This document shows, one piece after another, positions 25,549 through 35,849 of a stretch of 38,032 nucleotides of DNA. The stretch spans positions 1 through 38,032 of the forward strand of contig JAGOON010000004.1 of the NCBI GenBank assembly GCA_017992505.1, read 5' to 3'. Each line of letters starts with the position of its first letter. The first letter of the stretch is position 1. Source of the DNA: Minisyncoccota bacterium. Lineage in GTDB: Bacteria > Patescibacteriota > Minisyncoccia > Phycocordibacterales > UBA918. The notes under the pieces are model-generated. The model was not told the DNA's origin. It was given only the letters and a program-made list of their open reading frames with translations, and searched no databases. The translations under genes were made by a program, and so were the position numbers.

Positions 25549-26868
25549 TCATCCAAGCCAAACCTCTTTATTTGCCAACTTAATTTTGCTCCTTATACAT
25601 AAAAGTAGCTCTCTCTTTTCATAAATCTGTCCGTCACGAAGTATGTACTTCGCATAATTCCTAATATCTACATCAGACACTTTTACATTTGACTCTTTCT
25701 GTCCCAGCAGCCCAGACTGGAACTTCTTCAATCTCTCAATCTCGGCTTTGATTCGTTCCTTCATTCCAATACTGTCTAAGTCAATCTGATCCATGAGTCC
25801 CGCCAGTTGTTCAATAAGGTCGTCTTCGTTTATGTACCCACACTTACATTGCTTGTCGTTATGTTTGGTACACCCGTAGTAGACGTAGCGATGTACATTT
25901 CCGTTTTGCTGTACCTTGAACTTTTCATCAGCGGTGATGCTCGAACCACATAGCCCGCAAGACATCAGCTTTGTGAAGGCAAACTCCTTGCTGTCACCTT
26001 TCGTTATTTGCACCGCTATCTTTTCCTGTACTTGGTCAAAAAGGGCTTTGCTAATCAGTGGCGTATGTTTCCCTTGATACCACTGACCACCTCCTTGCGG
26101 ATATTCAAACGAACCGTAGTAGAAGTGATTGCGGAGAATGATGTATAGGTTGCCAAGATGTAGGTGTTTACCTGTCTTCGTCTTGAATTTTATTTCGTCT
26201 TTGAGCCAGAAGTATAATTTGCGACCGCTGTAGTTTTCATACGCTATCTTCTCGAACATTTTCTTTATGACATGTCCTCGGATGGGGTCGACTTCCACCT
26301 CGCATCGCTTGTCTCTGTTCTTGTTGCTCAGATATCCAGTTGGTGGACTACACGGCCAGAGTCCCATCTCGCACCTAGCTCGTAGTCCTCGTTTGATATT
26401 CACCATCTTGTTATCGTTCTCAAGCTTAGCCTGTGAGCCGAGAATCATAAGGAGGAACTTTTCGTTTGGATTGTTACTGAATCGTTGTCCGTAGGTGCGA
26501 ATGTCTTGCAGTACTCCTAAGTCCATGAGGTCCACTATTCTTCCCAAATCCCCAGCGTTTCTTGAAATACGGTCAGCTGCCCATGTAAGGATACCGTTGT
26601 ATTTTCCTTCCTTAATACCTTCCACCAACTCGTTGAATACTGGTCTTGCTCCTGCCTCTTTTGCAGAGTGAGATTCCTTCTTTATTTCTACAATCTCTAG
26701 ATTGTCCCGTTCTGCCATTGCCAGCATTTCCTTGATTTGTGAGTCGATGGATAGGATTTGCGCCTCTTCACTCTCCGTACTCTTTCTGGCGTATAGGCAA
26801 TATCGTACTGAGACCGCTACTGGCTCGATTCGCACTTTTGCTCCTATTGGTGCTTCTATTCTGCTCAT
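25549..26868 (-). CDS. Large-type serine recombinase/resolvase
   Basis: 439 aa. Resolvase catalytic domain (about 20-165) with nucleophile Ser30 in YCLYARKSTESEE and Arg residues in WAADRISRN. A Recombinase domain (about 185-285, with GYLSNKNRDKRCEVEVDP) is followed by a zinc-ribbon (CGLCGSS, then C-TKHNDKQCKC, about 308-347) and a C-terminal coiled coil. It catalyses site-specific recombination through a 5'-phosphoserine intermediate. Divergent from the AAA-ATPase gene. It is the only recombinase recognised in the island, but it sits about 8-10 kb from either att repeat. Confidence 0.93.
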   Translation of the reverse strand: MSRIEAPIGAKVRIEPVAVSVRYCLYARKSTESEEAQILSIDSQIKEMLAMAERDNLEIVEIKKESHSAKEAGARPVFNELVEGIKEGKYNGILTWAADRISRNAGDLGRIVDLMDLGVLQDIRTYGQRFSNNPNEKFLLMILGSQAKLENDNKMVNIKRGLRARCEMGLWPCSPPTGYLSNKNRDKRCEVEVDPIRGHVIKKMFEKIAYENYSGRKLYFWLKDEIKFKTKTGKHLHLGNLYIILRNHFYYGSFEYPQGGGQWYQGKHTPLISKALFDQVQEKIAVQITKGDSKEFAFTKLMSCGLCGSSITADEKFKVQQNGNVHRYVYYGCTKHNDKQCKCGYINEDDLIEQLAGLMDQIDLDSIGMKERIKAEIERLKKFQSGLLGQKESNVKVSDVDIRNYAKYILRDGQIYEKRELLLCIRSKIKLANKEVWLG

Positions 26869-26975: not shown

Positions 26976-27016
26976 AGCAGTAGGGTTATATATTAGTTCT
27001 TTTTTTGATATTTTGT

Positions 27017-28159
27017 ATGGTTAAAGATAAAAAGCTGGAAAACACAAGTAAAGTCGATGTCCACGAGAAGGCTCTTCCCGATCTTGTGATTGCGGCACTT
27101 AGTAACGACTTGACCGCTATTCAGTCCCTTTCAGTCAAAATAGCTCGTTCACTAAGCGAGAAAGATCCAATAGTGTCCTCAAAAATAATTAGCATTGTTA
27201 GTGATTTTTCTATATCCCGCAATCCTTTACGAGGTACAGGCACCCATCCAGTACCAACGGATACGGAAACGCAGTTAGAGATAGCCAACGTATCCACACC
27301 CAATAAGGCCTTGGACAGGAGGCCTATTCTTTCAAATGAGGTCAACAATCAAGTTTCTGTTTTTTTACAGGAATGGGCACAGCGTTCTTTGCTTCTTGAA
27401 AGAGGTCTGAATCCCAGTACAAATATCTTGCTTGTTGGTAAACCAGGAACAGGGAAAACGATGCTGGCAAAACATCTTGCAAATCAACTCGAGCTGAATC
27501 TCGTTACGCTAGATTTATCCGTGAGTATGTCGAGCCTTCTCGGAAAAACCGGTCAGAATTTAAGGAAAGTTTTTCAATATGTGAGACAAAATCCATGCGT
27601 ACTCTTGCTTGATGAATTCGACGCAATTGCTAAACGAAGAGACGACGTATCAGACTTGGGTGAAATAAAACGAATTGTAAATGTTCTTTTGATGGAATTA
27701 GACAACCTTCCTATAACATCTGTTGTTGTTGCGACAAGTAACCACCCCGAACTTCTCGACCCTGCAGTCTGGAGAAGATTTGACCGAGTCATTAATATAG
27801 ATATCCCTGGACAAGATGAACGTCAACAACTCTTAGTCAATGGCTTACTACCAATTTCTGACCTTCAGAGTAGTTCAACATCAAAAATAATTGACGTTGT
27901 TGTTGAAGTGATGAACGGACAAAGCGCTTCTGCCTTATGCCAATTTTCTGACAGAGTAAACAGAAGAGTGATTTTACAGCAAGTCGATTTAGACAAAGTG
28001 TTAGTTGAGGAGTTGGGCAATTATATAGACAATAAAAAAACGAAGGGGTTGATTTGTAAAGAATTGAAAGATGTTATGGGAGATCGTATAACAGTCAGAC
28101 AGCTATCAGATATTACCGGTCTTAGTCCTGCGGGAGTTCAGCACCACTTAGCTAAATAA
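27017..28159 (+). CDS. ietA: IetA-like AAA+ ATPase (antitoxin/defence partner)
   Basis: 380 aa from ATG 27017; a TTG at 27005 is in frame but less likely. An N-terminal helical region (1-100) precedes one AAA+ module: Walker A GKPGTGKT at 141-148, Walker B VLLLDEFDAI with D199-E200, sensor 1 in VVVATSNHPEL, and arginine-finger-like WRRFDR near 252. The C-terminus ends in a helix-turn-helix-like segment (TVRQLSDITGLSPAGVQHHL), which may bind DNA. It is the first gene of a pair, five bases from the subtilase gene. The ATPase plus subtilase order matches IetA-IetS, reported as a plasmid stability toxin-antitoxin system of pTiC58 and later among antiphage candidates. Confidence 0.82.
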   Translation: MVKDKKLENTSKVDVHEKALPDLVIAALSNDLTAIQSLSVKIARSLSEKDPIVSSKIISIVSDFSISRNPLRGTGTHPVPTDTETQLEIANVSTPNKALDRRPILSNEVNNQVSVFLQEWAQRSLLLERGLNPSTNILLVGKPGTGKTMLAKHLANQLELNLVTLDLSVSMSSLLGKTGQNLRKVFQYVRQNPCVLLLDEFDAIAKRRDDVSDLGEIKRIVNVLLMELDNLPITSVVVATSNHPELLDPAVWRRFDRVINIDIPGQDERQQLLVNGLLPISDLQSSSTSKIIDVVVEVMNGQSASALCQFSDRVNRRVILQQVDLDKVLVEELGNYIDNKKTKGLICKELKDVMGDRITVRQLSDITGLSPAGVQHHLAK

Positions 28160-28164
28160 CTATT

Positions 28165-30498
28165 ATGCCAAACGAAAACAATGAACGCCGACCAATGTTG
28201 CATAAAGGACAAGTGTACAGCAAGTCTGTTACGAAGAAATCTGGAGGTGGAGAAAAAACATATAGCCGCAGTTTTGATGAGGCCCTAAGTCATATAACCA
28301 CTAGTCTAGAATCTACTCTCGACACAGTCGCCTCACTACCACAAGAACATAGACTTCCAAATGAATTTGTTTTCTGTATAAGAATGGATCCTGATTTTAC
28401 AGCCAAAAGTTACTATCCCGAATCGTTTCTACGCGCTTTCGACAAAGCTGGAGCCATAACAGAAGTTGGTTCAAGAAAATGGACTGAGGATTTAGAAACT
28501 GATGAAGACCAAGCTTTAAAAACGACTCGCGAAGGAAAGCTCTTATTTATTCGCTCAAACCAAGAGACGTTAACTGGATTCGTAAATTCGCTTAAAAACG
28601 GTGGAGTCACTTTTAATGAAACCTTGCAGAATGAAATGCGTACTGTGGAAGAAATAAACCTCTTAACTCCTCAAGAACGACTTCAGGGCTTTGATAATGA
28701 GTGGGTCGAAGGACAAGTTGAAGTCGTAATACATCCGTTTGAAACTGACGGGGATGTTCTCACAAAACATTTTATCGACAAGCTTAAAAGTGCTGGAGTA
28801 AATCAGACAAGAGTTCGATTAAAGCATTATCCAGAAGGTCTAACTTTCGCTAGTTTTAAAGCAAGTAGAGCCAACCTCGAAGCACTGTCACAGTACAATC
28901 CGCTTCGATCAATGCACCCTCTAGAATTTAATGGTCTTCCGGAGATGCGTGCTTCATATGGAACCCAGATGCCGAATGTGACACCCTTAAGCGAAAAATC
29001 CTCTATTACCGTAGGTGTGTTTGATGGGGGTATTGATGATACAAACAATTATTTAAATAACCAGACTGAAGGTGTTGATCTGACCGCTAAAGCACCAGTT
29101 GCAAATGGTCTTATGCACGGAACAGCTGTAACGGGTTTAATTTTGTACGGTGAAATGAATCAATACCCTGCTGGACATCAACTTCCAACTCCTCCTGTGT
29201 CGGTAAGAAGTTTTAGAGTGTTTCCACTTGATGACGATACCGACATAGAAAATCAGGTTGAACTATATGAAATCATAGATAAAATCGAAGACACTGTTCC
29301 TAAACAAACCGATATAAAAGTTTATAACATTAGTTTCGGTCCATCTGGTCCAATTCTGGATGACTCGATCAATCGATTTACTTGGGCATTAGATAGATTG
29401 GCACATAAATATGGAATCTTATTTTGCGTAGCGGTTGGTAATGACGGAGAAAGGGTTCTTAATAGGGTTCAAGCTCCGTCTGATATGGTTAATGGACTTG
29501 GAGTTGGTGCATACAATAAAGTAAACGGCGTCATCGGCAGAGCCGCGTATAGCTGTGTGGGTCCAGGGCGTGAAGGAAATAAAATCAAACCCGACTTATG
29601 TGCATTTGGGGGTTGTGCACAAAATCCAATCCAGCTAGTTCCTATGGGCGGAAATAATCGGCTAGCCGACATGGGTACGAGCTACTCCTCTCCTCTTGTA
29701 GCTAGAGCTGCCGCTGAAATACTAGGAAGAAGTAGTGACGAAGTTGACCATCTTGCAGTACGAGCAATGCTGATACATTCAGCCCAAAAGTTAAACGATG
29801 ATGAATCTACTGACATAGAACACGGGCATGGCATTATGCCTGATACAGTCGAAGAAATTATGTCGTGCAAGCCTGGTTCTTACACACTACTCTACAGAGG
29901 TGCAATTGCTCCTGCAAAATATGCAGAATTACAGATACCCTGGGACCCAGCTGTAACTAGCGGTACTGCTAAAATGAAATGGACGCTTGTGACAGAAAGT
30001 GAGATTGACCCCAACAGTCCAGATGATTACACGACTTCGTCAGTAGAAATGACGCTATATCCGAATGCCCATAAATACCGTTTTGTGAGACTGAATGAGG
30101 CTGGCAAGAAAGAGACCCGGGACATAGACACTCGTGATGCTGCCCAACTTCTCGAAGTAGCTGGGTGGGAACAAAGTACCGTTCCAATTACAGCAACAGG
30201 AACTCCCACTTGGACTACAGAAGAAGAGTCTAGGCGCGATCTACTTAAATGGGATACTGTAGAGAAAAGAGTAAAGGGTTTCCGTGTCAGTTCAATCGCC
30301 AGTCCATGTTTTCACATACATGGCTTTAATAGAGGAATAAGAGCAGGTGCAAAATCAATTGATTATGCACTAGTACTTACGATTGAAATTACAAGTACAG
30401 ATATCGACCTATACTCTTCAGTGGTACACAATTTTGGTGCCTTACAACCAATCCGACTTGTAAACCAGAACGAACTTGTCATCAATATAAACAGTTGA
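28165..30498 (+). CDS. ietS: IetS-like subtilisin-family (S8) protease
   Basis: 777 aa, no signal peptide, so cytoplasmic. An N-terminal extension of about 280 residues has no recognised domain. The S8 catalytic domain follows, with Asp287 in VGVFDGGID, His318 in LMHGTAVTG and Ser506 in MGTSYSSPLVAR; the oxyanion region is AVGNDGERV. A C-terminal beta-rich part (about 570-777) is similar in layout to other large cytoplasmic subtilases. With the upstream AAA+ ATPase this fits IetS, the toxin component. All three catalytic residues look intact, so the protease should be active. Base composition is slightly AT-richer than the backbone genes. Confidence 0.85.
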   Translation: MPNENNERRPMLHKGQVYSKSVTKKSGGGEKTYSRSFDEALSHITTSLESTLDTVASLPQEHRLPNEFVFCIRMDPDFTAKSYYPESFLRAFDKAGAITEVGSRKWTEDLETDEDQALKTTREGKLLFIRSNQETLTGFVNSLKNGGVTFNETLQNEMRTVEEINLLTPQERLQGFDNEWVEGQVEVVIHPFETDGDVLTKHFIDKLKSAGVNQTRVRLKHYPEGLTFASFKASRANLEALSQYNPLRSMHPLEFNGLPEMRASYGTQMPNVTPLSEKSSITVGVFDGGIDDTNNYLNNQTEGVDLTAKAPVANGLMHGTAVTGLILYGEMNQYPAGHQLPTPPVSVRSFRVFPLDDDTDIENQVELYEIIDKIEDTVPKQTDIKVYNISFGPSGPILDDSINRFTWALDRLAHKYGILFCVAVGNDGERVLNRVQAPSDMVNGLGVGAYNKVNGVIGRAAYSCVGPGREGNKIKPDLCAFGGCAQNPIQLVPMGGNNRLADMGTSYSSPLVARAAAEILGRSSDEVDHLAVRAMLIHSAQKLNDDESTDIEHGHGIMPDTVEEIMSCKPGSYTLLYRGAIAPAKYAELQIPWDPAVTSGTAKMKWTLVTESEIDPNSPDDYTTSSVEMTLYPNAHKYRFVRLNEAGKKETRDIDTRDAAQLLEVAGWEQSTVPITATGTPTWTTEEESRRDLLKWDTVEKRVKGFRVSSIASPCFHIHGFNRGIRAGAKSIDYALVLTIEITSTDIDLYSSVVHNFGALQPIRLVNQNELVININS

Positions 30499-30542
30499 TA
30501 GCACCCCTTCGCAAGACCCGGTATGTAAGCTAAGGTACTGAC

Positions 30543-30767
30543 TAATAGCCCGATTTGAGCTATTATGTTCCTTACAACACCTAAACCAGAGAGTAATTTC
30601 TGGCATGGTTATAAAATCCTACGCAAATAGAAACGGCTACATAAGCCGGCACTTATTTGCGTAGGTTCGCACTCGAAAGGGTGCGGGATAATTCCGAAAG
30701 GAGTTGTCGTCGGTCTTGTGTAGCCTTTTGTGTTACCCAAGATTTTATAAGTAAAATCCTACGCAAA
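30543..30767 (+). ncRNA. Candidate structured RNA or small non-autonomous element with nested inverted repeats
   Basis: Pairings read from the sequence: AATAGC/GCTATT (30543-30563); CCAGA/TCTGG (30586-30603); CCTACGCAAATA (30618-30629) with TATTTGCGTAGG (30654-30665) around an inner CGGCT/AGCCG; CGCACTC-GAAA-GGGTGCG (30668-30685); ATTCC-GAAA-GGAGT (30691-30704). Long-range: TTATAAAATC (30609-30618) with GATTTTATAA (30741-30750), and GGCTACA (30635-30641) with TGTAGCC (30719-30725). TAAAATCCTACGCAAA is a direct repeat at 30612-30627 and 30752-30767. No protein frame fits. Confidence 0.5.
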
Positions 30768-30770
30768 AAT

Positions 30771-31271
30771 ATGCAGTCATTTAAACTGTCGTCTCCAGAA
30801 AAAGACGATACGCCTGTAAAGCCCAGAGGTACGCTCGCTAAAATCGGTCATGGTTTCAAGGTGTTTTTTACCAGCCTCCTTGTCATCTTTGTTTGTTTTA
30901 TATTTATCACTATCTTCAAACAGATTCTGGCTGAGGAAAGTAGACCTGACTCAAGCTCACAACCAACTCAAGCGGAAGAAAAGGTGGATACATACACAGA
31001 CTCTGAGGTGTATGTTGAATCGAAATTTATACTTGAGAAGTTTCTCAAGGCACCATCAACAGCTGAGTTTCCATCTTCGAGCTATGCAAGAATCGAACGC
31101 TTGAAAGACAACGGATTTAAGGTGACCTCTTATGTCGACTCTCAAAACGGCTTCGGTGCAATGATTCGAAGCGAATGGACTGTTCTCTTCCAATATGTTG
31201 GTGACCAAATCAAACTGTACCAAGTCATCATTGACGGAGAGGAAATGTATCGAGGGGACATAACTGAATAA
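30771..31271 (+). CDS. Single-pass membrane protein, unknown function (166 aa)
   Basis: The open frame extends upstream to a TTG at 30657, but that part translates the structured repeat element; the ATG at 30771 (MQSFKLSSPEKDDTPVKPRG) is preferred. A cytoplasmic N-terminus of about 30 residues, one membrane helix (FFTSLLVIFVCFIFITIF), a polar linker, and a small extracytoplasmic domain with KFILEKFLKAPSTAEFPSSS and VTSYVDSQNGFGAMIRSEW, a pattern I have seen in small bacterial lipoproteins. No clear Shine-Dalgarno. It could belong to the neighbouring IetAS unit, but nothing proves it. Confidence 0.62.
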   Translation: MQSFKLSSPEKDDTPVKPRGTLAKIGHGFKVFFTSLLVIFVCFIFITIFKQILAEESRPDSSSQPTQAEEKVDTYTDSEVYVESKFILEKFLKAPSTAEFPSSSYARIERLKDNGFKVTSYVDSQNGFGAMIRSEWTVLFQYVGDQIKLYQVIIDGEEMYRGDITE

Positions 31272-31310
31272 TATAAAACCACTGGCAGTGCCAGTGGTTT
31301 TATATTATTC
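31266..31310. terminator. Bidirectional terminator between convergent genes
   Basis: 22-base perfect arms around one central base, core ACTGGCA-G-TGCCAGT with AT-rich outer parts. It overlaps the ends of both neighbouring genes. Confidence 0.9.
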
Positions 31311-31745
31311 ATTCCAATCGTCAGGGTCTCCGCCTCTTTCAAGAAACTCTCGATATCGATTCAACTGAGCCATGATAGGAATCGAAGCAATAGTAATCGG
31401 TTGGGTCATCTCTTCAATTCGGAATGGCGAGGTCGTCTTCTTCGGATGATAGTCCTCATGACAATTAGCAAGCTGGAACTTAATCGCTCCCATATCACCG
31501 TTCTGGATGTTACGAATGAGTTGATTATGGGCAAGGTCATTCACGAACTCCTTCCCTGAGCCAATGGCTAGTACTACCTTATGAGCGAAATCATCACCTT
31601 CTTTTCGCCAACGGTAGTACGTATCTCGACTCACTCCCGCTTTCTTGCAGGCAAAGCTCACGTTACCTGACTCAGCGAGAGCTTCAAGCAGTTTCTCCTG
31701 CTGTCGTCTAATCCGAACGTCGATAGCTGAGGGTTTCTTCTCCAT
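31305..31745 (-). CDS. HTH protein resembling phage terminase small subunit (phBC6A51-like)
   Basis: 146 aa. The N-terminal 60 residues contain a helix-turn-helix: KLLEALAESGNVSFACKKAG followed by VSRDTYYRWRKEGDDF. The central helices (GSGKEFVNDLAHNQLIRNIQ then NGDMGAIKFQLANCHEDY) match the small-terminase-like family. In phages this subunit recognises DNA for packaging. No large terminase, portal or capsid gene is present, so it is a remnant or a co-opted DNA-binding protein. Overlaps the upstream methyltransferase gene by 38 bases. Confidence 0.72.
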   Translation of the reverse strand: MEKKPSAIDVRIRRQQEKLLEALAESGNVSFACKKAGVSRDTYYRWRKEGDDFAHKVVLAIGSGKEFVNDLAHNQLIRNIQNGDMGAIKFQLANCHEDYHPKKTTSPFRIEEMTQPITIASIPIMAQLNRYREFLERGGDPDDWNE

Positions 31746-32487
31746 ATCCAGTTAATGTGAGCCAGCGACGAATGATAGTCTCGCAGTATTCCGTATCCAT
31801 CTCGACCATGACGCACTTTCGTTTCGTGTGTTCACACGCAATCAAAGTCGAACCACTGCCACCAAACGGGTCGTAGACGGTGTCACCAACGTCTGTACTG
31901 TTGAGTATGAGTCGTCGCAACAATCCAATTGGTTTCATGGTCGGATGAAGTTTGCTCTGCTGAGGTTTTGGATGAAAAACAACCGACTTATCCTTACCTC
32001 GCTTGAAGTCATGTGTGCCTTTCCAGCCATACAAGATAAGTTCATGTTGAGGCATATAGTCGAGACGACCAATGATGGCTTTATCTTTCACCCAGATGAT
32101 GAGCTGTGCCACTTTCATACCCGCTTCTATACAAGCGTCTCGGAGAGCGAATATCATCTTGTCGCAGTTGAAGATGTAGATACTGTTCTTTTTGGTCAGT
32201 TGTGCCAGAGCAGGCGCTAGCCATCCTTTGGTGAAATCCACGTACGCCACGTCAGTCACAAAGCCGTCGTTCGCAATATCCTTATCTTTCGCTACAGCAT
32301 TCAACCCTCGCTTGCTCGCCACATAATCAATGCCATATGGCGGGTCAGTGAGGAGCAAATGGATATCGCCATGTTCTTTCAAGTTCACCTTCGAGGAGTC
32401 GCCACAGATAAGAGTATGGTCTCCGAGTGTGATGATGTCTCCAGCCTTAATTGAGTGAGACAGCCTTGGTGCCAGAGAATTTTTCAT
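31708..32487 (-). CDS. Site-specific DNA methyltransferase (N4/N6-type, DPPY)
   Basis: 259 aa. Catalytic motif IV LLLTDPPYGIDY comes before the SAM-binding motif I VYDPFGGSGSTLIACE, the order of beta-class N6-adenine/N4-cytosine methylases. The N-terminal IKAGDIITLGDHTLICGDSS is the usual lead. It modifies DNA; the recognition sequence is unknown. No restriction endonuclease is visible beside it. It overlaps the other methyltransferase by 41 bases and the HTH gene by 38 bases, so the three are tightly coupled. Confidence 0.88.
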   Translation of the reverse strand: MKNSLAPRLSHSIKAGDIITLGDHTLICGDSSKVNLKEHGDIHLLLTDPPYGIDYVASKRGLNAVAKDKDIANDGFVTDVAYVDFTKGWLAPALAQLTKKNSIYIFNCDKMIFALRDACIEAGMKVAQLIIWVKDKAIIGRLDYMPQHELILYGWKGTHDFKRGKDKSVVFHPKPQQSKLHPTMKPIGLLRRLILNSTDVGDTVYDPFGGSGSTLIACEHTKRKCVMVEMDTEYCETIIRRWLTLTGYGEETLSYRRSD

Positions 32488-33721
32488 AGCGGTTGATGAT
32501 TACCTGACAAAAGATGGGATTCATTTCGACCAAGAAGGCGTTACGCTTCATCTGCTCACACGCCAACAGTGTTGACCCGCTCCCTCCAAACAGATCTAGA
32601 ACATTGTGTCCAATCTTGGTACAACGACTGAGTGGTCGTTCATGCAAAGTGATTGGCTTCTGGGTTGGATGCTCATACGCATCACCTGCCACACGCTTGG
32701 CTAGCCAGATATCAATCATGTCGTTGATGTCATCTGCGGTAGCGTTACCAGTTCCAACTTCAGGATTTAGAATCTCATGGAACTTCTTATGTTTATCTGA
32801 GAGATACGGCTTGCCAGTTATTCCGTAGACGCACGGTTCGTAGCATTTATTGAAGGCAATCTTCGGAGTCGGATTGATACCGTTCTTCACCCAGAGTGCT
32901 GTTCGCTTATAAGCGATACCGAGTTCCTCATACAGGTTCTGGAGCATACCGACATATTTCTGGTCGCAGTACCAAAAGTGGTGAGCATCCTTCTCGCTAA
33001 CCGACAACGCACTTTGCATGACGGACTTGAGGAAGATGCGGAATTCAGTGTTTGTTTTCTTGTCATCAACCGTTCCGCCATAGTTGGCGTTGCCTCCGAC
33101 ACCTTTGTTGTAGTTGAGGGAGATGTTGTATGGCGGGTCACAGTAGACGGTCTGAATTTTCTGTTCACCGAGGAGTCGAGCGACAACATCTTTATCAGTG
33201 CTATCACCACAAACAAGGCGGTGATTCCCGAGAGCGAACATATCGCCAGTTTTAATGTCGGTCTTCTCAGCTTCCTTGACCGCTTTTTCTTCATTAAATT
33301 CGTCGTCTTGCAGTTCCAGTACATCATCCCAGATATCGGAGAGGTCGCCATCATCGAAGCCGATATCCAAAAGGAACGAGGTGTCGAAGCTCTTCAGGAG
33401 TTCGTAGTCCCACGAGCCTGTGTTGCGATTGGAACGCAGAAGATACTCCTCAAACTCTGACTTTGTGAGCAAGCGATTCGGGACACGGACTTCGATTTCT
33501 TCTTGCCCACGACCGAGTGCCTGCATAATCTTCAGTCGAGCGTGTCCTGCCACTACAGTATTGTCTGTATTGATAGCGGGAATCTCGACAAGATTAAATT
33601 TAGTAATACTTGCCTCAAGGTCACGGCGTTGCTTATCGGAAAGCGTACGCGGATTCTTCTCGTAGGGGATGAGGTCGTCAACGCGACGACTCTCGGTGTG
33701 CCATGTAAGTTTGGCTGACAT
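32447..33721 (-). CDS. ParB-like N-terminal domain fused to a DNA methyltransferase
   Basis: 424 aa. The N-terminus (about 10-110) is ParB/sulfiredoxin-like: VDDLIPYEKNPRTLSDKQ and VAGHARLKIMQALG. An acidic linker (about 120-160) follows. The methylase domain has VYCDPPYNIS (motif IV) before LDLFGGSGSTLLACE (motif I), beta-class. This fused architecture is common in phages and prophages, next to terminase genes. It would methylate adenine-N6 or cytosine-N4. The second methylase is immediately downstream and overlapping, and is not a close copy (different spacing and insert). Confidence 0.9.
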   Translation of the reverse strand: MSAKLTWHTESRRVDDLIPYEKNPRTLSDKQRRDLEASITKFNLVEIPAINTDNTVVAGHARLKIMQALGRGQEEIEVRVPNRLLTKSEFEEYLLRSNRNTGSWDYELLKSFDTSFLLDIGFDDGDLSDIWDDVLELQDDEFNEEKAVKEAEKTDIKTGDMFALGNHRLVCGDSTDKDVVARLLGEQKIQTVYCDPPYNISLNYNKGVGGNANYGGTVDDKKTNTEFRIFLKSVMQSALSVSEKDAHHFWYCDQKYVGMLQNLYEELGIAYKRTALWVKNGINPTPKIAFNKCYEPCVYGITGKPYLSDKHKKFHEILNPEVGTGNATADDINDMIDIWLAKRVAGDAYEHPTQKPITLHERPLSRCTKIGHNVLDLFGGSGSTLLACEQMKRNAFLVEMNPIFCQVIINRYEKFSGTKAVSLN

Positions 33722-35635: not shown

Positions 35636-35733
35636 GCACAGCCAACATGAAAAGCCGTCCCATTAGGGATGGCTTTTCTGTTGTTGCTGTGCGGAGTGAA
35701 GAAAGTGCCCTGCGGCACTTTCGTGAAGAATCG
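35636..35733. other. Hairpin-rich region at the right end of the island
   Basis: The 309-base gap between 35582 and 35892 has no credible gene. It contains an outer stem GCACAGC (35636-35642) / GCTGTGC (35686-35692) around a terminator-like AAAAGCC...GGCTTTT hairpin (35650-35677), and then GAAAGTGCC/GGCACTTTC (35701-35722). GAAGAATCG at 35725-35733 is an inverted copy of part of the att repeat. Confidence 0.5.
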
Positions 35734-35830
35734 AAAGCCACAGTCATACCGTAAGGCGAACGAGGCGGGGTCGAGAACACTTAGTATATCTGGAGTTGAA
35801 GACGAACAAATATACTTAGTGATTCGTGAC

Positions 35831-35849
35831 CGATTCTTCTCACCCGCAC
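35831..35849 (+). repeat. attR-like direct repeat of the tRNA-Gly 3' end
   Basis: Exact copy of the 19 bases at 17255-17273. No other part of a tRNA is present here. It is immediately followed by a strong symmetric terminator, as would fit the original 3' side of the tRNA gene. Confidence 0.85.

Follow-up and report, generated by a model that had tools for sequence, protein, structure and literature searches.

Identity of the structured intergenic region

A sequence-only reading of 38,032 nucleotides of DNA from a Minisyncoccota bacterium (contig JAGOON010000004.1, hereafter the window) had singled out an intergenic region at 30543-30767 with far more structure than a simple terminator. The question was whether this region encodes a structured RNA linked to the neighboring IetAS pair, serves as a leader of the next gene, or is a non-autonomous mobile element. 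Folding of the (+) strand gave a minimum free energy of -80.6 kcal/mol, compared with -49.7 ± 4.4 kcal/mol for 200 dinucleotide shuffles (z -7.1; 0/200 equally stable), and the - strand gave a z of -4.9. All parts that had been described were recovered: five hairpins (a palindrome at 30543-30565, P1, P2 with an inner stem, P3 and P4), GAAA loops capping both P3 and P4, the 12-bp inverted copy (30618-30629 / 30654-30665), and a 16-bp direct repeat, TAAAATCCTACGCAAA, at 30612-30627 and 30752-30767, of which no further copy was present in the window. The 7-bp long-range block (GGCTACA/TGTAGCC) proved to be the core of a longer helix of 14/15 pairs.

The structured region corresponds to LOOT, a bacterial RNA that is already catalogued. 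Positions 30578-30708 (+) matched the Rfam family RF03000 with 75.6 bits (gathering cut-off 46.4; E 1.2e-12) over its full length of 121 model positions, and P1-P4 were present in the window alignment together with CCUAAAC/GCAUGG and the GAAA loop. The earlier reading had missed that the RNA belongs to a catalogued family; the covariation test that it suggested was positive among homologues. LOOT is one of the metagenome-based families that Rfam adopted from the Weinberg data (PMC7779021), and it was highlighted in a structure-prediction study for 28 cross-covariations (PMC7657543). A literature search, which did not cover the founding 2017 paper, returned no published function. The functional unit extends past RF03000 as far as the start codon (30771). 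Not covered by the Rfam model are the 3' strand of a pseudoknot (PSI), the U-tract and x2, the downstream copy of the repeat (Table 1).

Table 1. Coordinates of the LOOT RNA, its cargo gene and the surrounding element in the window
Feature	Position	Strand	Evidence
Large serine integrase of host element (PF00239, PF07508, PF13408; phrog_95 integrase)	25549..26868	-	homologues near 69/139 LOOT loci
Sigma-70 type promoter, CTGACT-17-TATTAT	30538..30566	+	read in sequence; kept in G011; -10-like box enriched across loci
Palindrome TAATAGC-N9-GCTATTA between -35 and -10, operator-like	30543..30565	.	arms read in sequence
LOOT RNA (RF03000), core P1-P4	30578..30708	+	covariance-model match, 75.6 bits
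P1 with CCUAAAC / CAUGG, 11-nt GAAA-receptor-like internal loop	30580..30608	+	CCUAA in ~130/139 loci
x, P2 5' strand	30618..30630	+	repeat and pairing analysis
PSI 5' strand, P2 apical loop	30631..30645	+	pairs with 30715-30729
x', P2 3' strand, complementary to x and x2	30653..30665	+	x:x' -17.4, x2:x' -14.8 kcal/mol
P3 hairpin, GAAA loop 30675-30678	30667..30686	+	fold; GAAA 3' of P2 in 139/139 loci
P4 hairpin, GAAA here; UUCG, GCAA, GUAA at other loci	30687..30708	+	fold and locus comparison
PSI 3' strand and U-tract, beyond Rfam model	30715..30729	+	pairs with 30631-30645
x2, copy of x, first base 13 nt from AUG	30758..30767	+	same arrangement in 5/40 loci outside the order
Cargo gene, 166 aa, putative membrane protein, no Pfam match	30771..31271	+	profile search
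Terminase-small-subunit-like HTH protein	31305..31745	-	phrog_4044, 2.5e-10; cluster near 33 LOOT loci
Two N6_N4 DNA methyltransferases of element	31708..33721	-	profile search

The presence of LOOT was counted in relatives of the window's genome, in samples of its order and phylum, and in control genomes. Carriers made up 23 of the 59 relatives, 161 of the 397 order genomes (41%) and 83 of the 380 phylum genomes (22%), and none of the 14 control genomes carried it. Copy numbers reached up to seven per genome. The patchy distribution and the small genomes would be in keeping with candidate-phyla bacteria. The window's genome contains three LOOTs, two above the cut-off and one just under it, and the two further ones are diverged from the window copy. 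For comparative analysis we used 139 distinct oriented loci within the order and 40 loci outside it (~180 copies). Eight pattern matches on IMG/VR viral contigs comprised three with LOOT, one group I intron and four chance matches.

A copy of the P2 5' strand in front of the start codon

One unit of the direct repeat is x, the P2 5' strand, and the other is its copy x2, located just 5' of the AUG of the next gene. Across the comparative set, exact identity between the P2 5' strand and the sequence downstream extended over at least 10 nt at 39 of 140 loci, compared with 1.6% of swapped pairs. Mismatches were counted over 9 positions of x after the P2 helix had been delimited solely by pairing: 38 of the 139 loci had 0/9 mismatches, 13 had one and 4 had two, and the rest had 3-5. 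On these sequence counts, about 50 of the 139 loci were assigned to an x2 class. Identity between x and x2 falls off past position 9. The distance from the first base of x2 to the ATG was 13-14 nt in 29 of 51 x2 loci, and this spacing was not a selection criterion.

There were 38 distinct x sequences, several positions showed each of the four Watson-Crick pairs, and x2 varied from locus to locus together with P2. Pairing of x' with x2 reached 95%, compared with 50% for shuffled and 27-41% for slid partners, a comparison that is partly circular because the x2 loci were picked by their match to x. Pairs were counted by script, as MAFFT alignment of the composite strands shifted registers. Non-circular support came from the spacing, the bimodal mismatch counts, the swapped controls and the second set of loci. 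In that second set, the same rule applied to the 40 loci outside the order gave three exact and four one-mismatch x2 copies against 0.5 expected (swapped null for at most one mismatch, 1.3%); five of the cases were convincing, with the AUG at +12 to +15. x2 was missing in 63% of the loci within the order and in most of those outside it, so that a ribosome lock would be optional.

Over the x2 class, the median energies of x:x' and x2:x' were -18.3 and -15.2 kcal/mol. Since x:x' is the more stable pairing, here as in the window, a switch between the two would need a trigger. Copies of x elsewhere in the elements were near chance (nine matches, several of them overlapping, against 4.3 expected), and CCTACGCAAA-N(0-12)-ATG occurred at one site in the window's own genome; trans targets of x were rejected on these grounds. 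We likewise rejected a conserved upstream reading frame starting from an AUG in P1, the length and sequence of which vary (judged by eye).

Pseudoknot and receptor-like motif

The long-range helix PSI joins the 5' half of the P2 apical loop to a strand starting a few nucleotides past P4 and running into the U-tract. As this pairing crosses P2, it forms a pseudoknot. One mismatch over 15-21 columns is typical of PSI, as in the pairing of ATAAAGAACCCATCATATGGG to CCCATGTGGTGGGCTTTTTGT; in the window, the helix joins AAACGGCTACATAAG to CTTGTGTAGCCTTTT. The median PSI score over the 139 loci was 35.4 with a locus's own downstream strand and 18.0 when partners were swapped between loci. On average, the own partner outscored 95% of those from other loci, over many different core sequences. 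By this comparison, the PSI pairing is locus-specific across the 139 loci. PSI has the form of a pseudoknotted intrinsic terminator, at which transcription would probably end. The idea that terminators differ in strength between loci with and without x2 was considered and rejected, the PSI scores being equal (p 0.13); the U-tracts differed marginally (p ~0.04), an unreliable value because the U-tract is counted within the PSI score.

P1 contained CCUAA at ~130 of 139 loci, in most cases facing YAUGG, and every one of the 139 loci has a GAAA 3' of P2. The canonical 11-nt GAAA receptor is CCUAAG/UAUGG (PMC11381326), which the P1 motif matches save for the last position. Because of this departure, docking of the P3 GAAA loop into the P1 receptor-like loop is put forward as a prediction only.

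Promoter and operator-like palindromes

A -10-like box (at most one mismatch, within 46 nt 5' of LOOT) was found at 124 of 138 loci, compared with 34 of 138 for a control stretch 200 nt further up. In the window, the palindrome at 30543-30565 overlaps the -35/-10 promoter and is therefore most likely untranscribed promoter DNA and not RNA. Upstream palindromes with arms of at least 7 occurred at 22% of loci, compared with 6% after shuffling. Those near the -35/-10 region differ in sequence among loci, e.g., the window, L021, L012, L073 and L128. They are perhaps repressor operators that also serve the divergent integrase gene.

Cargo genes and exchange of the module

A same-strand gene follows LOOT in nearly all of the 139 loci, usually within 20-75 nt, and a leader of the next gene was the best fit among the three earlier proposals. 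The 134 cargo genes fall into 92 protein clusters and match 72 Pfam families, including a superinfection immunity protein (PF14373) and a host cell surface-exposed lipoprotein (PF07553), and also include nucleases, methylases and many small membrane proteins. Cargo without a common function is unusual for a metabolite sensor. One cargo family of ~245 aa (FWGYGN...WFVGMEEG) was observed after LOOTs with different x (L062, L065, L100, L001, L008, L025, L080 and L141).

LOOT modules were found ahead of unrelated genes in 34 pairs that are at least 85% identical. The homology usually starts within ~40 nt of the LOOT start and stops 30-40 nt before the AUG or at the AUG. For example, the window and G009 are 92% identical between the -10 box and the AUG (30561-30773) and continue into unrelated genes beyond that point. 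In G011 the element itself is the same (85-88% identity), but the LOOT is a different one in which x, x' and x2 are all changed; G011 keeps the window's promoter and the first 13 codons.

Serine-integrase elements as the genomic context

Of 72 integrase matches, 64 were upstream of LOOT and divergent from it, 24 of these within 200 nt. Integrase relatives were also present in the fetched flanks of 15 of the 40 loci outside the order. The neighborhoods differed between x2 loci and the others: methyltransferases (28/51 vs 15/88) and terminase-small-like genes (24/51 vs 9/88) were frequent in the x2 class, and D5-primase-like genes (0 vs 14/88) occurred only outside it. Three short IMG/VR contigs (L163, L164 and L167) combined LOOT with integrase or terminase genes, lacked an obvious capsid gene over the part examined, and are possible satellites. 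A reverse-transcriptase-like cluster (~340 aa, named from sequence only) was located a few hundred bases from LOOT in L116, L140, L073, L098 and L108; in L116 the gene is on the opposite strand, directly after x2.

An AAA ATPase and subtilase pair at 27005-30498, resembling the IetAS defence, is situated inside the element, and G011 has the same pair. Full-length IetS relatives stood next to LOOT at no locus other than those of the window and G011, and L110 had one that was partial; an RNA linked to IetAS was rejected, other LOOTs having other neighbors. The mobile-element proposal fared differently. A MITE with many copies was dismissed, since the suggested search for other genomic copies (BLAST) returned this DNA only once in the genome and the other two LOOTs are diverged; the proposal was nonetheless correct in spirit, as LOOT occurs in serine-integrase elements and near-identical copies precede unrelated genes. 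A direct-repeat search for the ends of the element gave no clear att pair, and flank searches met a dispersed repeat. This repeat of ~75 bp (35761-35833), with a neighbor of ~100 bp (35636-35735), has many copies, several per genome, is present in 30 of 35 genomes of the genus, and resembles a REP or MITE family.

Proposed mechanism and rival explanations

We consider it somewhat probable that LOOT serves as a modular, mobile leader placed 5' of one cargo gene, whose transcription it attenuates, and that in the x2 class it would also act as a ribosome-site lock. Judging from the -10 box, transcription would start shortly 5' of P1. After folding of P1, P2, P3 and P4, probably stabilized by the P3 GAAA loop docking into P1, the P2 apical loop would pair with the strand just before and into the U-tract, forming the pseudoknotted intrinsic terminator. 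Most transcripts would end as a ~150-nt RNA, and only read-through would get to the cargo gene. In the x2 class, the cargo mRNA would carry the copy of x at about -14 to -5 of the AUG. Pairing of x' with x would leave the ribosome site free, and pairing with x2 would shut it. In such a strand-exchange switch, the x:x' state would be favored by ~2-3 kcal/mol and the ribosome site open by default, and anything removing or occupying x would close it. The LOOT module would move between genes and elements.

The main rival holds that LOOT is a trans-acting antisense immunity RNA like P4 CI or P1/P7 C4: through x', the RNA of a resident element would pair with both x and x2 in a related, incoming element, shutting the leader gene of the latter, and the diversity of x would represent heteroimmunity. 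The parts stand in the same order as in P4, where the CI RNA pairs with seqA upstream and seqC downstream and the antisense strand is likewise flanked on both sides by target copies within one mobile-element leader (PMC4825925); in LOOT, this arrangement was found in the x2 class only. C4 is also a mobile-element RNA with variable complementary segments, one of them over a ribosome site; it covers ribosome sites, and 4-nt differences restrict its cross-action (PMC5320573). The mobile-element context, with LOOT swapped in elements otherwise 85-88% identical, would agree with immunity as well. However, a 10-13 bp stem within the same RNA sequesters x' and no processing site is evident, the downstream gene is cargo and not replication or lytic control, and extra copies of x in the elements are not clearly beyond chance. 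One genome has two LOOTs that share their x, and a frequency of 1/42 among pairs within genomes, compared with 1.6% between genomes, gives no sign of exclusion, though the pairs are few. The known RNAs differ too: no sequence relation to P4 CI was seen, the LOOT antisense strand is stem-locked and the terminator is part of the RNA, whereas C4 has another fold and is excised by RNase P. The Rfam C4 model had no match in the window, where only LOOT and one tRNA passed. We regard the immunity explanation as unlikely.

An independent sRNA with its own promoter and terminator, found near genes through moron-like cassettes and with another role for x2, appears quite unlikely. Rfam classes LOOT as an sRNA, the promoter and terminator signatures are strong, and x2 is missing in most loci; against this, the gene in x2 loci starts ~40 nt past PSI, too close for an ordinary second promoter, and the position of x2 is tied to the start codon. 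Alternatively, x and x2 could be DNA recombination repeats for cassette exchange or phase switching, with the RNA fold secondary. Borders of module exchange do lie near the transcription start and the start codon, with an integrase next door, but x must also match x' and PSI its far strand, neither of which DNA repeats need, and exchanged modules carry different x. Repeats this short and variable are not known to be used by serine integrases. We judge this explanation highly improbable.

The leader and attenuator favored here has parallels in other systems. The short RNA IsrK of the Gifsy-1 prophage also ends at a terminator, has a read-through mRNA and involves translation set by alternative structures (PMC4825925), but its sequence is unrelated and it opens a ribosome site in trans. 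LOOT resembles P4 immunity, C4 and IsrK in layout; membership is not claimed, because processing and trans action are only putative and the controlled genes differ. Like riboswitch-type leaders, LOOT has a conserved fold ahead of genes, with a same-strand gene directly downstream and a possible expression platform offering terminator-type and ribosome-site-type outputs; unlike them, its cargo genes have no common function and no ligand is known. It is also conceivable, though rather improbable, that LOOT is a widespread, horizontally exchanged RNA switch carried by mobile elements of very small bacteria, in which x diversifies because LOOT RNAs act in trans as immunity determinants between elements as well. 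If so, two identical partners, the first lying upstream and the second covering the ribosome site, would compete for a single strand.

What appears to be new is the x2 class, together with the pseudoknotted terminator, the match to the receptor and the setting of mobile cargo, although the founding 2017 description may already draw PSI or the receptor. With the leader proposed here, LOOT, a catalogued orphan RNA, becomes a testable regulator of cargo genes in hard-to-culture bacteria and would offer a ready-made, reprogrammable strand-exchange leader.
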